This document shows, one piece after another, positions 285 to 6,774 of a stretch of 6,832 nt of DNA (positions within the stretch are counted from its first letter, which is position 1; each line of letters begins with the position of its first letter). The notes beneath the pieces were generated by a model. It was not told where the DNA came from. It saw only the letters and a list, made by a program, of their open reading frames with translations, and searched no databases. The position numbers were made by a program, and so were the translations under genes. Source of the stretch: Gammaproteobacteria bacterium (GTDB taxonomy: Bacteria; Pseudomonadota; Gammaproteobacteria; Competibacterales; Competibacteraceae); contig JAIFNF010000224.1 of assembly GCA_020047885.1 (NCBI GenBank), positions 1 to 6,832 on the forward strand, in the 5' to 3' direction.

Positions 285-1052
285 CTAAAAATCATAATCC
301 ATGATCAACGGGGCATGATCCGAAAAGCGTTGTTCCCGGTAAATGGCGGCAGTGCGCACCTTGTCGGCCAGTCCGGGCGTGATGATCTGATAATCAATCC
401 GCCAACCGACATTTTTGGCCCACGCCTGACCGCGATTCGACCACCAGGTGTATTGATCCGGTTCGGGATTCACTGCTCGGAAAGCGTCCACCCAGTTCAG
501 CGCTCCAAAGAGTTCATCCAGCCAGGCCCGTTCTTCGGGCAGAAAGCCGGAATAGTTCTGATTAGCCCGCCAGTTTTTCAGGTCGATGTTTTTATGCGCG
601 ATATTCCAGTCGCCGCACAGAACGTAGTCGCGGCCACTGGCCTGCATCGCCCGCAAAGGTTCAGCTAGTCGCGCCAGAAAATCGAATTTCACCGCCTGCC
701 GTTCGGGACTGGAGGAGCCGGAGGGCAGATACACCGACGCCACACTGAGATTGCCAAAGCGCGCCTCCAGCCAGCGCCCTTCGGTATCGCATTCCGGCCA
801 GCCCAGCCCAATCCGCACGTCATCCGGTTCCCGGCGAGCGTACAGCGCCACCCCGCTATAGCCCTTGCGCTCAGCGTCATGGTAGTAGCAGTGATAGCCG
901 GGCGGCTGATAGATCGCCGGCGGTAACTGGTGAATCTGCGCTTTGGTTTCCTGAAGACAGACGATGTCGGCGTTCTGCCCGACCAGCCAGTCGAAAAAGC
1001 CCTTGCGGACCGCAGCGCGGAGGCCATTGGCGTTGAGGGTGATAATGCGCAC
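285..1052 (-). CDS. xthA: exodeoxyribonuclease III (AP endonuclease family)
   Basis: This 255-residue protein belongs to the exonuclease III / AP endonuclease branch of the EEP phosphatase fold, a magnesium-dependent cytoplasmic enzyme of base-excision repair that cuts DNA 5' to abasic sites and degrades duplex DNA 3' to 5'. The expected motifs are in order: N7 in NANGLRA, E35 in CLQETK, Y108 in YLPSG, D148 and N150 in GDWNIAH, D220 in GWRIDYQ, and D245-H246 in SDHAPL. The length fits the family (E. coli 268). The start codon is GTG, chosen because translation then begins with the family's canonical MRII(T/S)xNxNG; no good Shine-Dalgarno precedes it. The gene is divergent from pyrE, 86 bp apart. 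In Pseudomonas this place is held by crc, a relative whose catalytic residues are substituted. Here they are all present, so a nuclease is the better call, though a regulatory role is not excluded. Confidence 0.93.
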   Translation of the reverse strand: MRIITLNANGLRAAVRKGFFDWLVGQNADIVCLQETKAQIHQLPPAIYQPPGYHCYYHDAERKGYSGVALYARREPDDVRIGLGWPECDTEGRWLEARFGNLSVASVYLPSGSSSPERQAVKFDFLARLAEPLRAMQASGRDYVLCGDWNIAHKNIDLKNWRANQNYSGFLPEERAWLDELFGALNWVDAFRAVNPEPDQYTWWSNRGQAWAKNVGWRIDYQIITPGLADKVRTAAIYREQRFSDHAPLIMDYDF

Positions 1053-1138
1053 GGTGAAAGAGGTCGATGATCGGGTAGCAGGCTCGGGGAGCGGCTATGA
1101 TACGGCATTCCTCCCTCTCATCACCGGAATTTCCAACC

Positions 1139-1783
1139 ATGCAGGACTATCAGCGGGATTTTCTCAACGTCGCCATTGACCGTGGTGCATTGCGCTTCGG
1201 CGAATTTACCCTCAAATCCGGGCGGGTCAGCCCGTATTTCTTCAATGCCGGTCTGTTCAATAGTGGCGCAGCGCTCGCTCAACTGGGCCGTTGTTACGCT
1301 GCCGCAATTGAGGCATTCGGGCTGGAATTCGATGTGCTGTTTGGACCGGCCTACAAGGGTATTCCACTGGTCGCCGCCGTCGCTATCGCCCTGGTTGAGC
1401 AACAGGATCGTGACGTGCCGTGGTGCTTCAACCGCAAGGAAGCCAAGGATCATGGCGAGGGCGGCCTGATCGTCGGTGCGCCGTTGCAGGGTCGGGTGCT
1501 GATCGTGGACGACGTGATGACGGCGGGTACGGCCATTCGCGAAACCCTGCAGCTTCTCGAAGCGCATCGCGCTGCGCCTGCCGGCGTCCTTATTGCCCTC
1601 GACCGGCAGGAGCGCGGTCAGGGGGAATTATCGGCCGTTCAGGAAGTCGAGCGTGACTACGGGGTGACGGTCGCCAGCATCGCCACACTGAACGATCTGG
1701 TCGCGTATCTGGCCGAACGCCCGGACTATGCGGAACGCCTGGCGCAGATGCAGGATTACCGGGCGCGGTATGGCATCAAATAA
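1139..1783 (+). CDS. pyrE: orotate phosphoribosyltransferase
   Basis: This 214-residue enzyme joins orotate to PRPP to give orotidine 5'-monophosphate and pyrophosphate, the fifth step of de novo pyrimidine synthesis in the cytoplasm. It matches E. coli PyrE (213 residues) nearly end to end. Visible landmarks are the N-terminal YQRDF, the [16 protein letters not shown] segment with K26, FGPAYKGIP at 68-76, the [12 protein letters not shown] loop with K100, K103 and H105, and the PRPP-binding signature [13 protein letters not shown] at 120-132. An in-frame ATG 42 bases upstream would add 14 unconserved residues; the start at 1139 restores the family N-terminus. The Shine-Dalgarno is weak (GGAA about 8 bases upstream). 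Unlike in enterobacteria there is no rph gene directly upstream, so the classical rph-pyrE attenuation layout is absent. The 3' end overlaps the convergent flavoprotein gene by 8 bp. Confidence 0.97.
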
Positions 1784-2933
1784 AGCAGGCCGGATCAAGC
1801 CATTCGTGATCTTCCGCTGAATCTACCAACGCCACTGACGGCAGCATCGCTAGAGGTTCCCGCGTTCCACCGTCCAGCAACGCCGTGGCCTGTTCCACCC
1901 AGGCCGCGATCAATTCGGCGGCTGGTCGGTCTTCGCACAGATGGCAACCCTGACCGGCCCACAGCGCCATGAAGTCGGTTAAACTCTGTTCAGCGGCGGC
2001 TTGCCGAATATCCTGAGTCAGGAACAGTTGCAGGGGAAAGCCGGGTAGTTCGGCTTCGTGGGCGTGCAATTCATTGACCAGCCGGTTGCGCAACACCCGG
2101 CCATGGCGACCGGTGAAAATGCGGGTCAAGGTCGTCGCAATTTCACTACCTTGGCTGAGCAGCGCCTTGTGCGCAAGATGTGCGCCGCTTTCGGGACAGG
2201 CCAAGAAGGCCGTACCCATCTGGACGCCGACTGCGCCCAGCATCTGCGCCGCCGCAATGCCGCGTCCATCCATAACACCGCCAGCGGTAATAATGGGAAC
2301 GGCGATGTGCCTGGCTAACAGTGGCGTCAGGGTCATCGCGCCGACCATACCCTGTTCGGCATGGCCGACAAATGCGCCACGATGGCCTCCGGCTTCAGCG
2401 CCCTGGGCGACAATAAAATCGAACCCGCTTTCTTCCAGCACAATGGCTTCGAGCAGGTGCGTGGCCGTGCCGAGTAGCGTGATGCCCGCTTCGCGCAGCA
2501 GGTTCAGATAAGCGGCTTCCGGTGCCCCGAACACGAAGCTGACCACTGGGATCTGCGCCTCCAGAATCACCGCCAGTTGCTCACCAAATTCTGGCAATTC
2601 CGGCATCGGTGGCGGTTCGGGCGGCAAACCCAGTTCAGCGCGGAAGGGAGCCAATAATTCCTGGGCGCGGGCGATGCGTACCGGATCCAGCTTGGCGGGA
2701 GGGGCAGCGGACAGGTTGACGGCAAACGGCTGATCCGTCAGAGCGCGGACGGCAGCAATCGCCTGCCGCAACGGTTCGGCATGGAGATAGCCGCCGGCCA
2801 GACAGCCCAGTCCCCCGGCGTTGGACACTGCGGCGACCAGTTGTGGCGTGCCCGGACCGCCAGCCATGGGTGCCTGAATAATGGGATAGCGAAGATGAAG
2901 TCGCTCGGTCAATAGGGTATTAGGCCAGTTCAT
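1776..2933 (-). CDS. nitronate monooxygenase-family FMN protein
   Basis: This 385-residue protein is a TIM-barrel flavoprotein of the nitronate monooxygenase (2-nitropropane dioxygenase) family; class I members oxidise alkyl nitronates such as propionate 3-nitronate using FMN and oxygen. Supporting motifs are [11 protein letters not shown] at 16-25, SNAGGLGCL at 38-45, GTATHLLEA at 155-163, [10 protein letters not shown] at 177-186 with the likely catalytic H184, [15 protein letters not shown] at 215-229 and [16 protein letters not shown] at 233-248, the last two fitting the phosphate-binding part of the FMN site. I start at 2933 (MNWPN) because the 33 residues before it are unlike the family, whose first strand begins about a dozen residues later. 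A tail after residue about 354 (rich in Leu, Ala and acidic residues) appears longer than usual for the family, and its last codons overlap pyrE. The actual substrate cannot be told; related enzymes include enoyl reductases of the FabK type. Confidence 0.88.
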
Positions 2934-3011
2934 GTAGGCTTGGGATTTCTCGCTGAAAGTAGCTGGAAGATTAGGCGGAATCCCGACCATTCGCCACACC
3001 GTTTGTTGACC

Positions 3012-3016
3012 GAGGA
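3012..3016 (+). promoter_or_regulatory. ribosome binding site of pgpA
   Basis: GAGGA lies 4 bases before the ATG at 3021. It selects this start over the in-frame ATG at 2940, which lies inside the region needed for the divergent flavoprotein gene's leader and would add 27 residues unlike the family. Confidence 0.65.
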
Positions 3017-3020
3017 CAAC

Positions 3021-3545
3021 ATGTCGCCCCATTCATCCGATTCACTGTCCTCCACGGTAGAGGATGTTCGCCCAAAGCCCTGCGCCCGCGTGTTTTGCGA
3101 CCCGGTGCATTTTTTGGCCTTGGGCTTCGGTTCCGGTTGTGCGCCAAAGGCGCCCGGCACCTTTGGCACACTGGCGGCCATTCCGCTGTATTTGTTGATG
3201 CAGCCGCTACCGCTGTGGATTTATCTGCTGCTTACAGCGGCTGGCTTCGCGCTGGGGGTGTGGATTTGCGACCGAACCGCCCGCGATCTGGGCGTCCATG
3301 ACCATCCGGCGATTGTCTGGGATGAGGTGGTTGGCTACTGGCTGACGATGATCGCTGCGCCGTCCGGCTGGCAGTGGGTCATCGCCGGATTCGCCTTGTT
3401 CCGGCTGTTCGATATTCTCAAACCCTGGCCGATCCGGCAGGCTGATCGAAAGGTAGGCGGCGGCTTCGGCATCATGTTTGATGATGTGCTGGCCGCCGTT
3501 TATGCGTGGCTGGTCTTGCAGGGATTGGCCTGGTGGTTACGCTGA
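3021..3545 (+). CDS. pgpA: phosphatidylglycerophosphatase A
   Basis: This 174-residue inner-membrane enzyme removes the phosphate from phosphatidylglycerophosphate to give phosphatidylglycerol, the last step of that branch of phospholipid synthesis. The length matches E. coli PgpA (172). Family motifs are all present: GFGSGCAPKAPGTFGTL at 35-51, HDHPAIVWDEVVGYW at 93-107 with the acidic metal site D101-E102, FRLFDILKPWPI at 127-138 and GGGFGIMFDDVLAA at 146-159 with D154-D155. Hydrophobic segments at about 51-80, 105-126 and 157-173 fit a membrane protein. The hydrophilic first 28 residues are not conserved. In many gammaproteobacteria pgpA follows thiL and nusB; here it stands alone, divergent from the flavoprotein gene across 87 bp, and converges on the autotransporter gene. 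Confidence 0.95.
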   Translation: MSPHSSDSLSSTVEDVRPKPCARVFCDPVHFLALGFGSGCAPKAPGTFGTLAAIPLYLLMQPLPLWIYLLLTAAGFALGVWICDRTARDLGVHDHPAIVWDEVVGYWLTMIAAPSGWQWVIAGFALFRLFDILKPWPIRQADRKVGGGFGIMFDDVLAAVYAWLVLQGLAWWLR

Positions 3546-3560
3546 TCCTGAGTGCATGCG

Positions 3561-3581
3561 AAACTACGCAGGCGCAGTTTT
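3561..3581. terminator. hairpin between convergent pgpA and autotransporter genes
   Basis: AAACT (3561-3565) pairs with AGTTT (3576-3580). With an inner CGC/GCG pairing this forms an 8-position stem around a 4-base loop; position 6 is A-C on the plus strand and G-U on the minus strand. On the plus strand the descending arm runs into TTTT (3578-3581), a short U tract that would suit termination after pgpA. On the minus strand no U tract follows the stem beyond its own TTT, and the arm touches the autotransporter stop codon. The site is placed where a shared terminator is expected, but it is weak. Confidence 0.4.
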
Positions 3582-5076
3582 AAAAAGCGACCGACAGTTG
3601 GCCGTAAAGGTTGTATCTGTCAGTCTGGTCAGCGCCGACCAAGGTCATCCCAGCGAGAGAGAACTGCGCCTGTCGGTTGAGCGCCAGGCTGACTCCGCCG
3701 GAAATCCGGCCATAGGTCTCTTCAGCCACATCGTCCAATGGCGTGGTGACCACAAAGTCCGGCGAGAAAGAAAACATGGACTCGACCGTATCCTCGCCGC
3801 CAATACCGAAATCCCGTTCAAGTTCGAGTTTAAGGTAAGAGCGGACCGGATATCCGCCCAGGGTATCCTGACGATCAAGAGCGGCTCCCAACGACGCGAC
3901 GAAACTTTCGCGATCCTGCTCCCCGATCCCTTGCGTCAGTAGTGGACTGCCCTTTTCCCAATAGGCGTCAACGCTACCCTTGGCATAACGGGCGGTCAGG
4001 AAAGGTCCGAAACGCAGGTTATCCTGTTCAAATAAATAGCCGCCTTGCAAACGCCCGGTATAACTCCAGCCATCGGTATCCGCTTCTACCCGGGTGGCGC
4101 CACTGAAGCGGTTGGATGAAAAATCAACCGTGCCGAGCGTTGCAATCACATCGAGGTAATATTGCGATTGCGAAAAGGAGCCGAAACCACCGATTTGATA
4201 GCTGGTGGCGTCGACGCTACCCAGTCCCTGGTGAATATCGCTATCCGAGTTTGCAAAATTAACGGCGATGCCCAATGTGCTCATGGGATTGATTCGAAAA
4301 TCCGCGCCCAACGTGGCCGAGCGAATGCTCTGCTCATATCCCAAGGCTCCTAATGTACTGTCCCGATCCGCCTGTCCATAGCTTAATGTGGCAAAAAAGG
4401 GACTCGATGAACAGACCGGGTCGTGTTTTACCGGGCTGCCTGCGCCATCTGCTCCAATAGCCAGTGGTGGCTGATCCATGCAGAATCCAGAGCGCCCCTG
4501 ATCCAGCCGATTCTCTAGCACAGACGTAAAATGCAGGGAGATATCTTCCAGCAAACCGACATTGACCCGGGACACTTCAGGCGCGAAGATGAAATTTTGC
4601 GCGACGGTCCTGGCTTGATCAAAAGTCAGATTGCCAAACTGATCGGCGATGGGATTGGTGTCATTAACCGCGGTTTGCATCGTGAATAAAAAATTGGTCG
4701 CATCTAGTCCCTCTCCCTGGCGAGCATCGATGGTCTGTACATCCTGTTCGGTACTCGCCACCTGGATAATCATGGCTCGATTGAATAGACCGGGTTGACG
4801 AAGAATAGAGATCTTGTCATTGCCAAATTGAATAATCGCCATCCGGTTATAGAAACCTGTCTGCAAGACTGCTGAATCCGAACTAACATTGTCTTCGACA
4901 ATACTGACTGAATTGGATACGTTTTCTTGGGTAATCGTAATCGGCGGCGTCACGGACTGAAAATCAGCCCCGTCAATGCTCACCCGTGAATCCGCTAGTG
5001 CTATAGCGGAGGAGATACAGGAAAAAGCAGAAATCGCGAGAACCTGGAATCGTGACACTGAATGCGCTTTCAACAT
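3580..5076 (-). CDS. curlin-repeat passenger fused to autotransporter-type beta-barrel
   Basis: This 498-residue protein has a signal peptide (about 1-28, ending SSAIALA before DSR), then a curlin-type domain: Q50, E61, Q72, Q83, Q94 and Q105 stand exactly 11 residues apart, with Gly or Asn two residues after the first five (N52, N63, G74, G85, G96) and Asn five after three of them (N55, N77, N99). The unit QPGLFNRAMIIQ fits the curlin pattern QxGxxNxAxxxQ perfectly. A linker follows (about 106-224) with a helix-like stretch near 170-195 that could thread the barrel and two cysteines (C199, C222). Residues about 225-498 are alternating amphipathic strands ending YGQLSVAF; the terminal Phe is the signal for outer-membrane barrel assembly. 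The 11-residue period is that of CsgB, the curli nucleator. I infer a surface-anchored amyloid-like domain. A frame extension to 5223 is rejected because it runs through a palindromic repeat. No name is assigned. Confidence 0.87.
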   Translation of the reverse strand: MLKAHSVSRFQVLAISAFSCISSAIALADSRVSIDGADFQSVTPPITITQENVSNSVSIVEDNVSSDSAVLQTGFYNRMAIIQFGNDKISILRQPGLFNRAMIIQVASTEQDVQTIDARQGEGLDATNFLFTMQTAVNDTNPIADQFGNLTFDQARTVAQNFIFAPEVSRVNVGLLEDISLHFTSVLENRLDQGRSGFCMDQPPLAIGADGAGSPVKHDPVCSSSPFFATLSYGQADRDSTLGALGYEQSIRSATLGADFRINPMSTLGIAVNFANSDSDIHQGLGSVDATSYQIGGFGSFSQSQYYLDVIATLGTVDFSSNRFSGATRVEADTDGWSYTGRLQGGYLFEQDNLRFGPFLTARYAKGSVDAYWEKGSPLLTQGIGEQDRESFVASLGAALDRQDTLGGYPVRSYLKLELERDFGIGGEDTVESMFSFSPDFVVTTPLDDVAEETYGRISGGVSLALNRQAQFSLAGMTLVGADQTDRYNLYGQLSVAF

Positions 5077-5219: not shown

Positions 5220-5888
5220 TCAAGGTCTGGGGAAAAGGGGGCGCATACGGCTGCGCATACGGTCTTCGAATTCATTAGCCGTCGGAAAGTCGGTGCCCCC
5301 GTTACTCGTCCTCCGGGTAGACGGACAATAATCGGTGTAATCCTGTGAACCGTGCGTAAAACGATCTCGGCCAATCGGTAGCGTGGCATTACCCGAGGAT
5401 TCGCGACCGGGCGGGATAGCACTGTACTGAGTCGTGTTATCCGGATCATCAGGTGTTTTGACCGCGCCGATTTTATCGGGATCACGCCCTTCACTTTGCC
5501 TGAATTCCCTGGCGGTCGAAATGCCGGAATCCGGTTCATTAGTCTTGCTGGCCCGTGGATCATCGACACGATCTTGCAACCGGCGAGTGAAACGATCCTG
5601 GTCAATCGAGGGTTGTGTCGCGCCGCTTCCTGAAGACCTGCGACTTCCCGAGTCGCCACTGCTCTGAATCGTAATATCGGTATTGCGGCCATCCCGGGTG
5701 ATGATTTTTTGGCCATCGGGCGTTTTGACAACCTCGGTCGTCCTCGGGCCACTGCCCCCGCTTTGCCGGATAACCGAGGTCGAGTTGCCCTGTTGGTGAA
5801 CCTCGGCAGCAGTGCATTCAACCGCGTTGAAAGTCATACCGAAGAGGATGGCGATGTACCCACGATAAATTGCATTCGACGAAGCCAT
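5220..5888 (-). CDS. exported curlin-like paralogue with internal duplication
   Basis: I do not recognise a named family. This 222-residue protein is a paralogue of the lipoprotein encoded just upstream: residues 1-100 align almost without gaps, including VIRQSGGSG, KTPDGQKIITRDG and TDITIQSS. The N-terminus is a signal peptide, but the residue before C25 is Glu (AVEC) where the paralogue has LAGC, so lipidation is unlikely and ordinary cleavage near 27-29 is more probable. GNSTSVIRQSG (34-44) and GRNTDITIQSS (67-77) are curlin-like strands 33 residues apart. The second half repeats the first at low similarity: VKTPD at 54 and 143, DRFT at 98 and 175, STAREF at 124 and PTANEF at 202. The rest is polar, rich in Arg, Asp, Ser, Thr and Pro, and probably disordered. 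It may be part of a curli-like surface assembly with its neighbours; this is inference from repeats and position. Confidence 0.75.
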   Translation of the reverse strand: MASSNAIYRGYIAILFGMTFNAVECTAAEVHQQGNSTSVIRQSGGSGPRTTEVVKTPDGQKIITRDGRNTDITIQSSGDSGSRRSSGSGATQPSIDQDRFTRRLQDRVDDPRASKTNEPDSGISTAREFRQSEGRDPDKIGAVKTPDDPDNTTQYSAIPPGRESSGNATLPIGRDRFTHGSQDYTDYCPSTRRTSNGGTDFPTANEFEDRMRSRMRPLFPRP

Positions 5889-6070
5889 AGGTCGCTCATT
5901 CCTCCTAATATTAGTGAGTGTCGCCTGGCTGTCTGGAGTAGCGCCGCGGCAGCTTTAGGGACGACAAAAAACAAGACTCGCCTAGGTTCGCGAAAGATTG
6001 GATTCAGTGATCTGTTCCCAGTACGGCCTACTGCTGGGGATTGGATTCAGTGATCTGTTCCCAGTACGGC
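5889..6070. other. intergenic region between the two paralogues
   Basis: No gene is seen in these 182 bases. The right third is taken up by a 43-bp tandem duplication. On the minus strand a short stem (TCGC/GCGA around 8 bases) is followed within a few bases by TTTTTT (near 5965-5972), a poor terminator candidate for the lipoprotein gene. Near 5901-5912 comes the AGGAGG of the next gene. No clear promoter pair was found. Confidence 0.5.
5901..5906 (-). promoter_or_regulatory. distant ribosome binding site of the 222-residue paralogue
   Basis: A perfect AGGAGG (minus strand) lies 12 bases before the ATG at 5888, longer than usual. A closer ATG falls in the gap but is out of frame with the protein. 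The alignment of the first residues with the neighbouring lipoprotein supports the start at 5888. Confidence 0.5.
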
Positions 6071-6082
6071 CTACTGCTGGGG
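5996..6082. repeat. perfect 43-bp tandem duplication, two copies
   Basis: The bases 5996-6038 are repeated exactly as 6039-6081, with one further matching base at 6082; the flanking bases on both sides differ. Each copy contains CTGCTGGGG and CCCAGTACGGCCTACT, which can fold as an interrupted hairpin (CCC/GGG and AGTA/TACT around CGGCC). The right copy contains the stop codon (6071-6073) and last codons of the lipoprotein gene; the left copy is the same sequence displaced into the downstream spacer. The exactness suggests a recent event. Confidence 0.95.
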
Positions 6083-6403
6083 TTGTCTGACCCGATTAGC
6101 GCGTTCAAAACGACTCTGGTCGAGTTGTGGTTGGGCAGCACCCTCCTCCGAGAGCCTGCTGCTCCCTGAGGCATCACTGCTTTGAATCGTAATATCGGTA
6201 CTGTTGCCATCGCGGGTAATGATTTTTTGGCCATCGGGTGTTTTGATGACCTCGGTCGTACTCGAGCCACTCCCGCCGCTTTGCTTGATGACCGTTGTCG
6301 AATTACCCTGCGGATGGTCTGTAGCCCCACATCCAGCTAAACCAAAGATCATGCTGGAGAGGATAGCGATGGGCCAGCCATTCACCTGACTTGAATAAAC
6401 CAT
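6071..6403 (-). CDS. small lipoprotein with two curlin-like strands
   Basis: This 110-residue protein has a signal peptide with a canonical lipobox, LAGC, at 22-25; the residue after the cysteine is Gly, so outer-membrane sorting is expected. The mature part holds two similar 11-residue segments exactly 33 residues apart, GNSTTVIKQSG (33-43) and GNSTDITIQSS (66-76). Both fit N-S-x5-Q, the first strand of the curlin repeat (E. coli CsgA has NSDLTITQHG). Between them lies KTPDGQKIITRDG, shared with the paralogue downstream. The C-terminus is polar and ends in PQQ. I know no name for this family. It is 80 bp downstream of the small curlin gene and on the same strand, which suggests a role in the same cell-surface assembly, for example as an outer-membrane anchor. 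The start at 6403 is preferred over the frame's earlier ATG (6475) because of its strong ribosome site and signal peptide. Confidence 0.85.
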   Translation of the reverse strand: MVYSSQVNGWPIAILSSMIFGLAGCGATDHPQGNSTTVIKQSGGSGSSTTEVIKTPDGQKIITRDGNSTDITIQSSDASGSSRLSEEGAAQPQLDQSRFERANRVRQPQQ

Positions 6404-6483: not shown

Positions 6484-6774
6484 TTACCGCTGTGGTGCGG
6501 GGCGCCGTTGCTGTGCGTCATAGCCGTACTGGATGACTTGGTTATCATTGACATCGCCGCGTTGGTAGGTCTCGGCCTGATTGTTCTGTCCAGCCTGCAT
6601 GGTCCCACTGTAGTTCTGACCACAATTCTGCTGGACACGCGAATGATTATTCTTGTCGATCTGGACATTGACATCGACACAGGGGCGGTTGCTGTTGTCA
6701 CGCGCGGCCTGGCTATAAGCAGATGCGCACGGAGCTAAAAGCACAACACTCAAAAGAAAAGGCAGTGTTTTCAT
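6484..6774 (-). CDS. small secreted curlin-repeat protein (CsgB-like)
   Basis: This 96-residue protein starts with a Sec signal peptide (about 1-19, hydrophobic FLLSVVLLAPCASA with ASA cleavage). The mature part is Asn- and Gln-rich and has three contiguous 11-residue units set by Q49, Q60, Q71 and Q82: QNCGQNYSGTM, QAGQNNQAETY and QRGDVNDNQVI. The middle one with its following Gln fits the curlin consensus QxGxxNxAxxxQ exactly. Uninterrupted 11-residue phasing is typical of the nucleator CsgB, whereas CsgA uses longer units. With only three units it is much smaller than CsgA or CsgB (about 150 residues). Two mature cysteines (C32, C51) are unusual for curlins, and C51 sits where Gly is expected. 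I infer a minor or miniature amyloid subunit. The ribosome site is weak (GGA about 10 bases upstream), and the upstream gene, if any, lies beyond the window. Confidence 0.8.
   Translation of the reverse strand: MKTLPFLLSVVLLAPCASAYSQAARDNSNRPCVDVNVQIDKNNHSRVQQNCGQNYSGTMQAGQNNQAETYQRGDVNDNQVIQYGYDAQQRRPAPQR

Follow-up and report, generated by a model that had tools for sequence, protein, structure and literature searches.

Introduction

Nucleation of curli depends on the way in which CsgF and CsgG attach CsgB to the cell. Autotransporters, as is established for the family, export their passengers outside the cell; beta-solenoids are common among these passengers, and the passenger of EstA also remains attached. 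An autotransporter-like barrel that serves an amyloid system, FapF, is described in part of PMC5557850 as doing so by exporting other chains. We analyzed a 6,832-nucleotide stretch of DNA (the window) from a Gammaproteobacteria bacterium of the Competibacteraceae, in which a 498-amino-acid open reading frame lies at 3580-5076 on the minus strand, with its ATG at 5076. Its sequence, 20 homologues and a structure prediction support the presence of a curlin-type solenoid and an autotransporter barrel on one chain. The product, which we call the curlin-autotransporter, combines a passenger of curlin repeats with a type Va autotransporter barrel, and its gene stands last in a small curlin locus.

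The curlin-autotransporter

A sequence-only reading of the window had placed Q50, E61, Q72, Q83, Q94 and Q105 in an exact 11-residue phase, and these residues were found as claimed. The accompanying pattern, Gly/Asn at +2 and mostly Asn at +5, was half right, as the residues at +2 are N, N, G, G, G and A, while those at +5 are N, S, N, K, N and E (Asn in 3 of 6). The phase that had been counted as five units is real, but it amounts to six strands, that is, three 22-residue curlin repeats, and a fourth repeat (residues 114-134) had been overlooked. Nor do the repeats directly follow the signal peptide; they start about 16 residues past the likely cut (ALA/D, by eye, after A28) of a likely Sec signal peptide (residues 1-28, positions 4993-5076, minus strand; helix at residues 9-21 in the model).

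One homologue search returned 22 proteins, 20 of which matched over 85-100% of the length at 46-90% identity; the other two were partial, and a profile search added one further partial-length match. The window protein and the 20 homologues were aligned (21 sequences, with P0006 incomplete at the C-terminus) and compared with the curlin motif N-x-psi-x-psi-x-Q, as given in part of PMC10192328. Eight passenger strands (44-50, 55-61, 66-72, 77-83, 88-94, 99-105, 114-120 and 128-134) pair into four repeats. Asn opens motif b at 55, 77, 99 and 128 in all 21 proteins, and motif a lacks the opening Asn except at 88 in 2 of them. Repeat 1 (residues 44-61; 4894-4947, minus strand, as for all parts of this protein) has invariant Q50 and N55, and its motif b ends at position 61 in E (15/21) or D (6/21), never in Q. 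Repeat 2 (residues 66-83; 4828-4881) has invariant Q72, N77 and Q83, and its motif at 77-83 fits N-x-psi-x-psi-x-Q in every sequence. Q94 and N99 are invariant in repeat 3 (residues 88-105; 4762-4815), where the motif at 99-105 is complete in 20 of 21. Repeat 4 (residues 114-134; 4675-4737) has longer turns and is less regular, with invariant N128 and Q134, Q120 in 20 of 21, a complete motif at 128-134 in 12, and model strands at 114-120 and 127-136. G85 and G96 are invariant as well. Conservation of the Gln phase, on which the sequence-only reading had staked its claim, was borne out by the four invariant Gln of the first three repeats and by Q105, which is Gln in 20 of the 21 proteins.

Chance or composition is an unlikely source of the Gln phase, as judged by shuffling. 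Shuffling residues 29-200 produced a plain step-11 Gln ladder of this length (5 Gln, with a single miss tolerated) 14 times in 20000, and shuffling the entire mature chain did so 6 times in 4000. When Gly/Asn at +2 and Asn at +5 were scored as well, the score of the window protein was equalled in none of 20000 and none of 4000, respectively. The plain count of complete motifs in the passenger, which is 3, was matched by 72 of 20000 shuffles.

The Pfam search suggested earlier for the curlin repeat (PF07012) listed no match on the window protein at an expectation value (E) <= 10, a range in which HMMER filters drop most weak matches. The same model matched 16 of the 21 family members at E <= 0.01, and its cut-off was exceeded in 4 of 10 homologues scanned from the 20. 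Against the NCBIfam models the window protein scored below the equivalog cut-offs, with E 3.5e-5 and 23.8 bits for CsgA (cut-off 160) and E 1.1e-4 and 22.0 bits for CsgB (cut-off 165); the CsgB model matched all 21 members at E <= 0.001. The predicted structure contained the anticipated solenoid strands in the repeat region, with a predicted local distance difference test (pLDDT) score mostly about 85-95. A Foldseek search of the passenger against the PDB gave no match at E <= 0.001, the best (E 0.072) being a SufB-SufC-SufD chain.

The C-terminal half agreed with expectation. PF03797 matched residues 228-474 with E 2.2e-38 and was found in all 21 family members, and the chain ends in Phe. The type Va barrel spans residues 226-498 (3583-4401), and its best solved relatives are EstA, NalP, AaaA and EspP. 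Between passenger and barrel is a helical linker (residues 142-194; 4495-4653), whose helix at 171-194 is positioned in the model like the in-pore helix of NalP and provides the helix expected inside the pore. The barrel had been expected to have 12 strands; the DSSP segments of the model count to 12 or 13.

A conserved locus with small curlin-like genes

Upstream of the curlin-autotransporter gene and on the same minus strand, the window holds two copies of a lipoprotein-like gene, gene 3b (5220-5888, the longer second copy) and gene 3a (6071-6403, shortened), both in our Family A5, and gene 2 (6484-6774), which encodes a 96-residue small protein with a signal-like N-terminus and Gln at step 11 (a Q-ladder protein). 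The window ends 58 bases upstream of gene 2, and a gene 1 would therefore fall beyond it. A scan of genome contigs identified six such loci, in Thiobaca trueperi, Thiocystis minor, a Thiocystis metagenome-assembled genome (MAG), a Burkholderiaceae MAG, a Thiorhodovibrio MAG and Macromonas bipunctata, which we take to group as purple sulfur bacteria and Burkholderiaceae/Macromonas. The order gene 1, gene 2, gene 3, curlin-autotransporter on one strand was present in all six, with gaps of 9 to 168 bases when gene starts were chosen by eye. PF07012 exceeded its cut-off in each of these six related genomes; 20 of the 22 matches at E <= 1 were on the contig of the locus, and the other two were weak (E 0.29 and 0.88).

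Judged from their sequences, genes 1 and 2 appear to provide the separate small curlin subunits that characterize curli, and 1 of 9 such proteins scanned exceeded the PF07012 cut-off. In gene 1 (91-97 amino acids) the longest step-11 Gln ladder, with a single miss tolerated, has 4 to 6 units and was equalled in 0 to 12 of 2000 shuffles; the gene 1 profile matched only one sequence in the PDB, that of the solved curlin 8c50 (E 2.4e-15). Gene 2, found in all six related loci, has step-11 Gln over 4 or 5 units, equalled in 0 to 28 of 2000 shuffles across loci. The window copy carries Q38, Q49, Q60, Q71 and Q82 (22 of 2000 shuffles equal) and gave a weak match to NCBIfam CsgB (E 0.001). Gene 2 had 32 relatives at E <= 0.001, one being the window's own, versus 20 for the curlin-autotransporter, and for this reason may be the more widespread of the two.

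The units of gene 1 read N-x-N-x-[S/T]-x-Q in five of the six loci (L001:8730-9005, L002:559-840, L003:8631-8909, L004:3445-3738 and L006:6093-6374). In these copies Asn and Ser/Thr, rather than hydrophobic residues, occupy the sites that in curli point to the core, suggestive of a curlin core that is all polar; that of the Thiorhodovibrio copy (L005) is mixed. In gene 2, C32 and C51 are invariant across seven sequences, which is unusual for a curlin subunit; curli subunits are not known to carry Cys.

Gene 3 has an invariant Cys in seven aligned copies. Since a clean lipobox was seen by eye in just 3 of the 7, the name lipoprotein-like is only a guess; such a gene is present in all 12 loci read (the window, L001-L006 and the five further loci L091-L095, described below). 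General scans of gene 3a gave weak matches to phrog_37690, whose function is not known (E 1.1e-4), and to the NCBIfam YgdI/YgdR lipoprotein (E 0.0046, below cut-off). A direct repeat of 203 nucleotides at 76% joins window positions 5590-5792 and 6108-6310, and the two gene 3 copies have the appearance of a tandem duplication; the other loci read have one gene 3 copy each. A perfect 43-bp tandem duplication (5996-6081) lies across the end of gene 3a, which is without a C-terminal part retained, in one form or another, by the other six copies in the alignment.

Proposed role

The reading that we prefer, and to which we assign an even chance, is that the curlin-autotransporter would be a self-secreted, membrane-anchored curlin nucleator, or an anchor or holder; the sequence-only reading had likewise proposed a self-secreted, self-anchored amyloid nucleator. 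The adjacent small curlin-like genes, of which that reading had said nothing, would offer a plausible client. The chain would cross the inner membrane via Sec, and the barrel would insert into the outer membrane. The N-terminal part would then be threaded outward, fold as a four-repeat curlin beta-solenoid and stay tethered to the cell. There its open curlin edge would template, possibly as amyloid, or hold the small curlin-like subunits from upstream genes 1 and 2, such that one chain would do the job of the E. coli CsgB held by CsgG-CsgF. A broader and more tentative proposal, which we hold with some doubt, is a curli-like system free of CsgG, CsgE and CsgF, in which small Q-ladder subunits, part of them having the all-polar core N-x-N-x-[S/T]-x-Q, would assemble together with a lipoprotein-like protein and, in one branch, on a curlin-repeat autotransporter that exports and tethers a nucleator of its own. 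Such a system would be a cross between type V secretion and curli.

Csg proteins and alternative roles

CsgG, CsgE and CsgF were searched for in the six related genomes only, and E. coli, among the positive controls, was matched every time. CsgG was over cut-off in one genome (Macromonas, on another contig, 106 bits) and was not in the other five; sub-cut-off matches had E 0.34 (G004) and 0.08 and 0.12 (G006). Neither CsgF nor CsgE was over cut-off in any of the six, with sub-cut-off values of E 0.05 (G002) and 0.31 (G004), respectively. The Macromonas match of 106 bits compares with 251-273 bits for the CsgG that five genomes carry on their curlin contigs, and its frame has no lipobox by eye; for these two reasons we take it to be another CsgG-family protein, although this is not proven.

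The small curlin-like proteins could alternatively be periplasmic, with the barrel protein merely an envelope link or a co-regulated adhesin. The failure to find the known curli export pore in most genomes searched would fit this arrangement, as would the lipoprotein-like gene in every locus read; nevertheless, autotransporter passengers as a family go outside, and the curlin proteins studied so far are, to our knowledge, all extracellular. We consider it improbable.

Among 210 genomes of the family of Thiobaca, a full-length curlin-autotransporter was present in 4. PF07012 at E <= 0.01 was found in 9, namely those 4 and 5 others. In the 5 others CsgG (E <= 8.7e-75) shares a contig with curlin repeats, and the 4 had no CsgG at E <= 0.01. 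Curlin detected by Pfam was thus paired with CsgG (5) or with the curlin-autotransporter (4), and both together were found in none of the 210 genomes. Because the four include MAGs or closely related genomes, they cannot be counted as four separate events. Among 399 genomes sampled from the Macromonas family, Macromonas alone had a curlin-autotransporter at E <= 1e-30.

One result weighs against a simple replacement of CsgG by the curlin-autotransporter. The gene 3 profile matched 9 of the 210 genomes, the same four and five more, and the latter have loci with gene 1, gene 2, a gene for another small Q-ladder protein (the third, containing two Cys) and gene 3 (L091:7462-9291, L092:8447-10279, L093:8631-10415, L094:3404-5257 and L095:8087-10009). 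No autotransporter was seen beside these genes, the contig of L094 stopping 1.3 kb after gene 3. Neither CsgG nor PF07012 was found at E <= 0.01 in these genomes, and four of the five had no curlin-autotransporter match at E <= 1e-10; the fifth (G057) had a barrel-only match on another contig. The small genes can therefore exist in the absence of the curlin-autotransporter. As proof of replacement, the mutual exclusion of CsgG and the curlin-autotransporter is weakened by these five loci with neither. A further possible role for the barrel is to export the small curlins as well, acting in trans in the manner of FapF with FapC, which would make it the substitute for CsgG; we regard this as quite improbable.

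The occurrence of the small genes without the curlin-autotransporter would suit a stand-alone autotransporter adhesin or stalk, whose short beta-solenoid, by curlin ancestry or convergence, nucleates no neighbor. The negligible match between the passenger and the gene 2 profile and the frequency of solenoid passengers in autotransporters point the same way. On the other hand, the order with the small curlin-like genes is kept in all six loci of differing groups, and the curlin-specific Asn and Gln are invariant, versus at most 3 Gln in phase in 26 other barrel relatives returned as loci from the 210-genome search (for 9 of these 26 the frame runs past the edge of the locus, leaving the passenger partly unseen). 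We judge a stand-alone adhesin to be unlikely. The possibility that the window protein is one of many barrels with Gln-rich passengers was rejected on the same count, taken besides the four full-length proteins.

Positions 285-3545 of the window hold ordinary neighbors, namely exodeoxyribonuclease III, pyrE, a nitronate monooxygenase-type enzyme and pgpA. An Rfam scan of the window gave no match, and promoter and terminator scans found 2 and 5 candidates versus 2.5 and 3.4 expected, respectively.

Comparison with known systems

A literature search over titles and the starts of abstracts in an incomplete library yielded no description of a curlin-autotransporter fusion. The word "autotransporter" has 0 occurrences in the main text, as far as it was available, of the curli surveys PMC3521004 and PMC10192328, and the available part of PMC4551309 describes no curlin-autotransporter. 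What is new here is the conserved run of two small Q-ladder genes, a lipoprotein-like gene and the curlin-autotransporter. Sleutel et al. (PMC10192328) counted 1033 of 43279 CsgA-bearing genomes without CsgG; loci of the present type may, we suggest, account for part of these. If the proposed role is true, a nucleator welded to a barrel would allow nucleation to be studied without the CsgF-CsgG complex, and it would demonstrate the recruitment of curlin repeats by a different route of secretion.

Like the curli proteins CsgA/CsgB (PF07012), the window protein has 22-residue strand-turn-strand repeats with N-x-psi-x-psi-x-Q, and small curlin-like proteins are encoded alongside. It differs in that motif a is degenerate, position 61 is E/D, and the repeats are fused to an outer-membrane barrel; its related genomes also differ, with no CsgG over cut-off in 5 of the 6 and no CsgE or CsgF over cut-off in any of the 6. 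With Fap it shares, by structural match of the barrel only, the 12-stranded barrel and helix of FapF (5o65) in an amyloid locus, whereas FapF carries a trimeric coiled coil in the periplasm and serves to export chains other than itself. The barrel, in-pore helix and terminal Phe resemble those of the type Va autotransporters EstA and AaaA (3kvn, 9oqa; PF03797), but the passenger here is a curlin-type solenoid instead of an enzyme.
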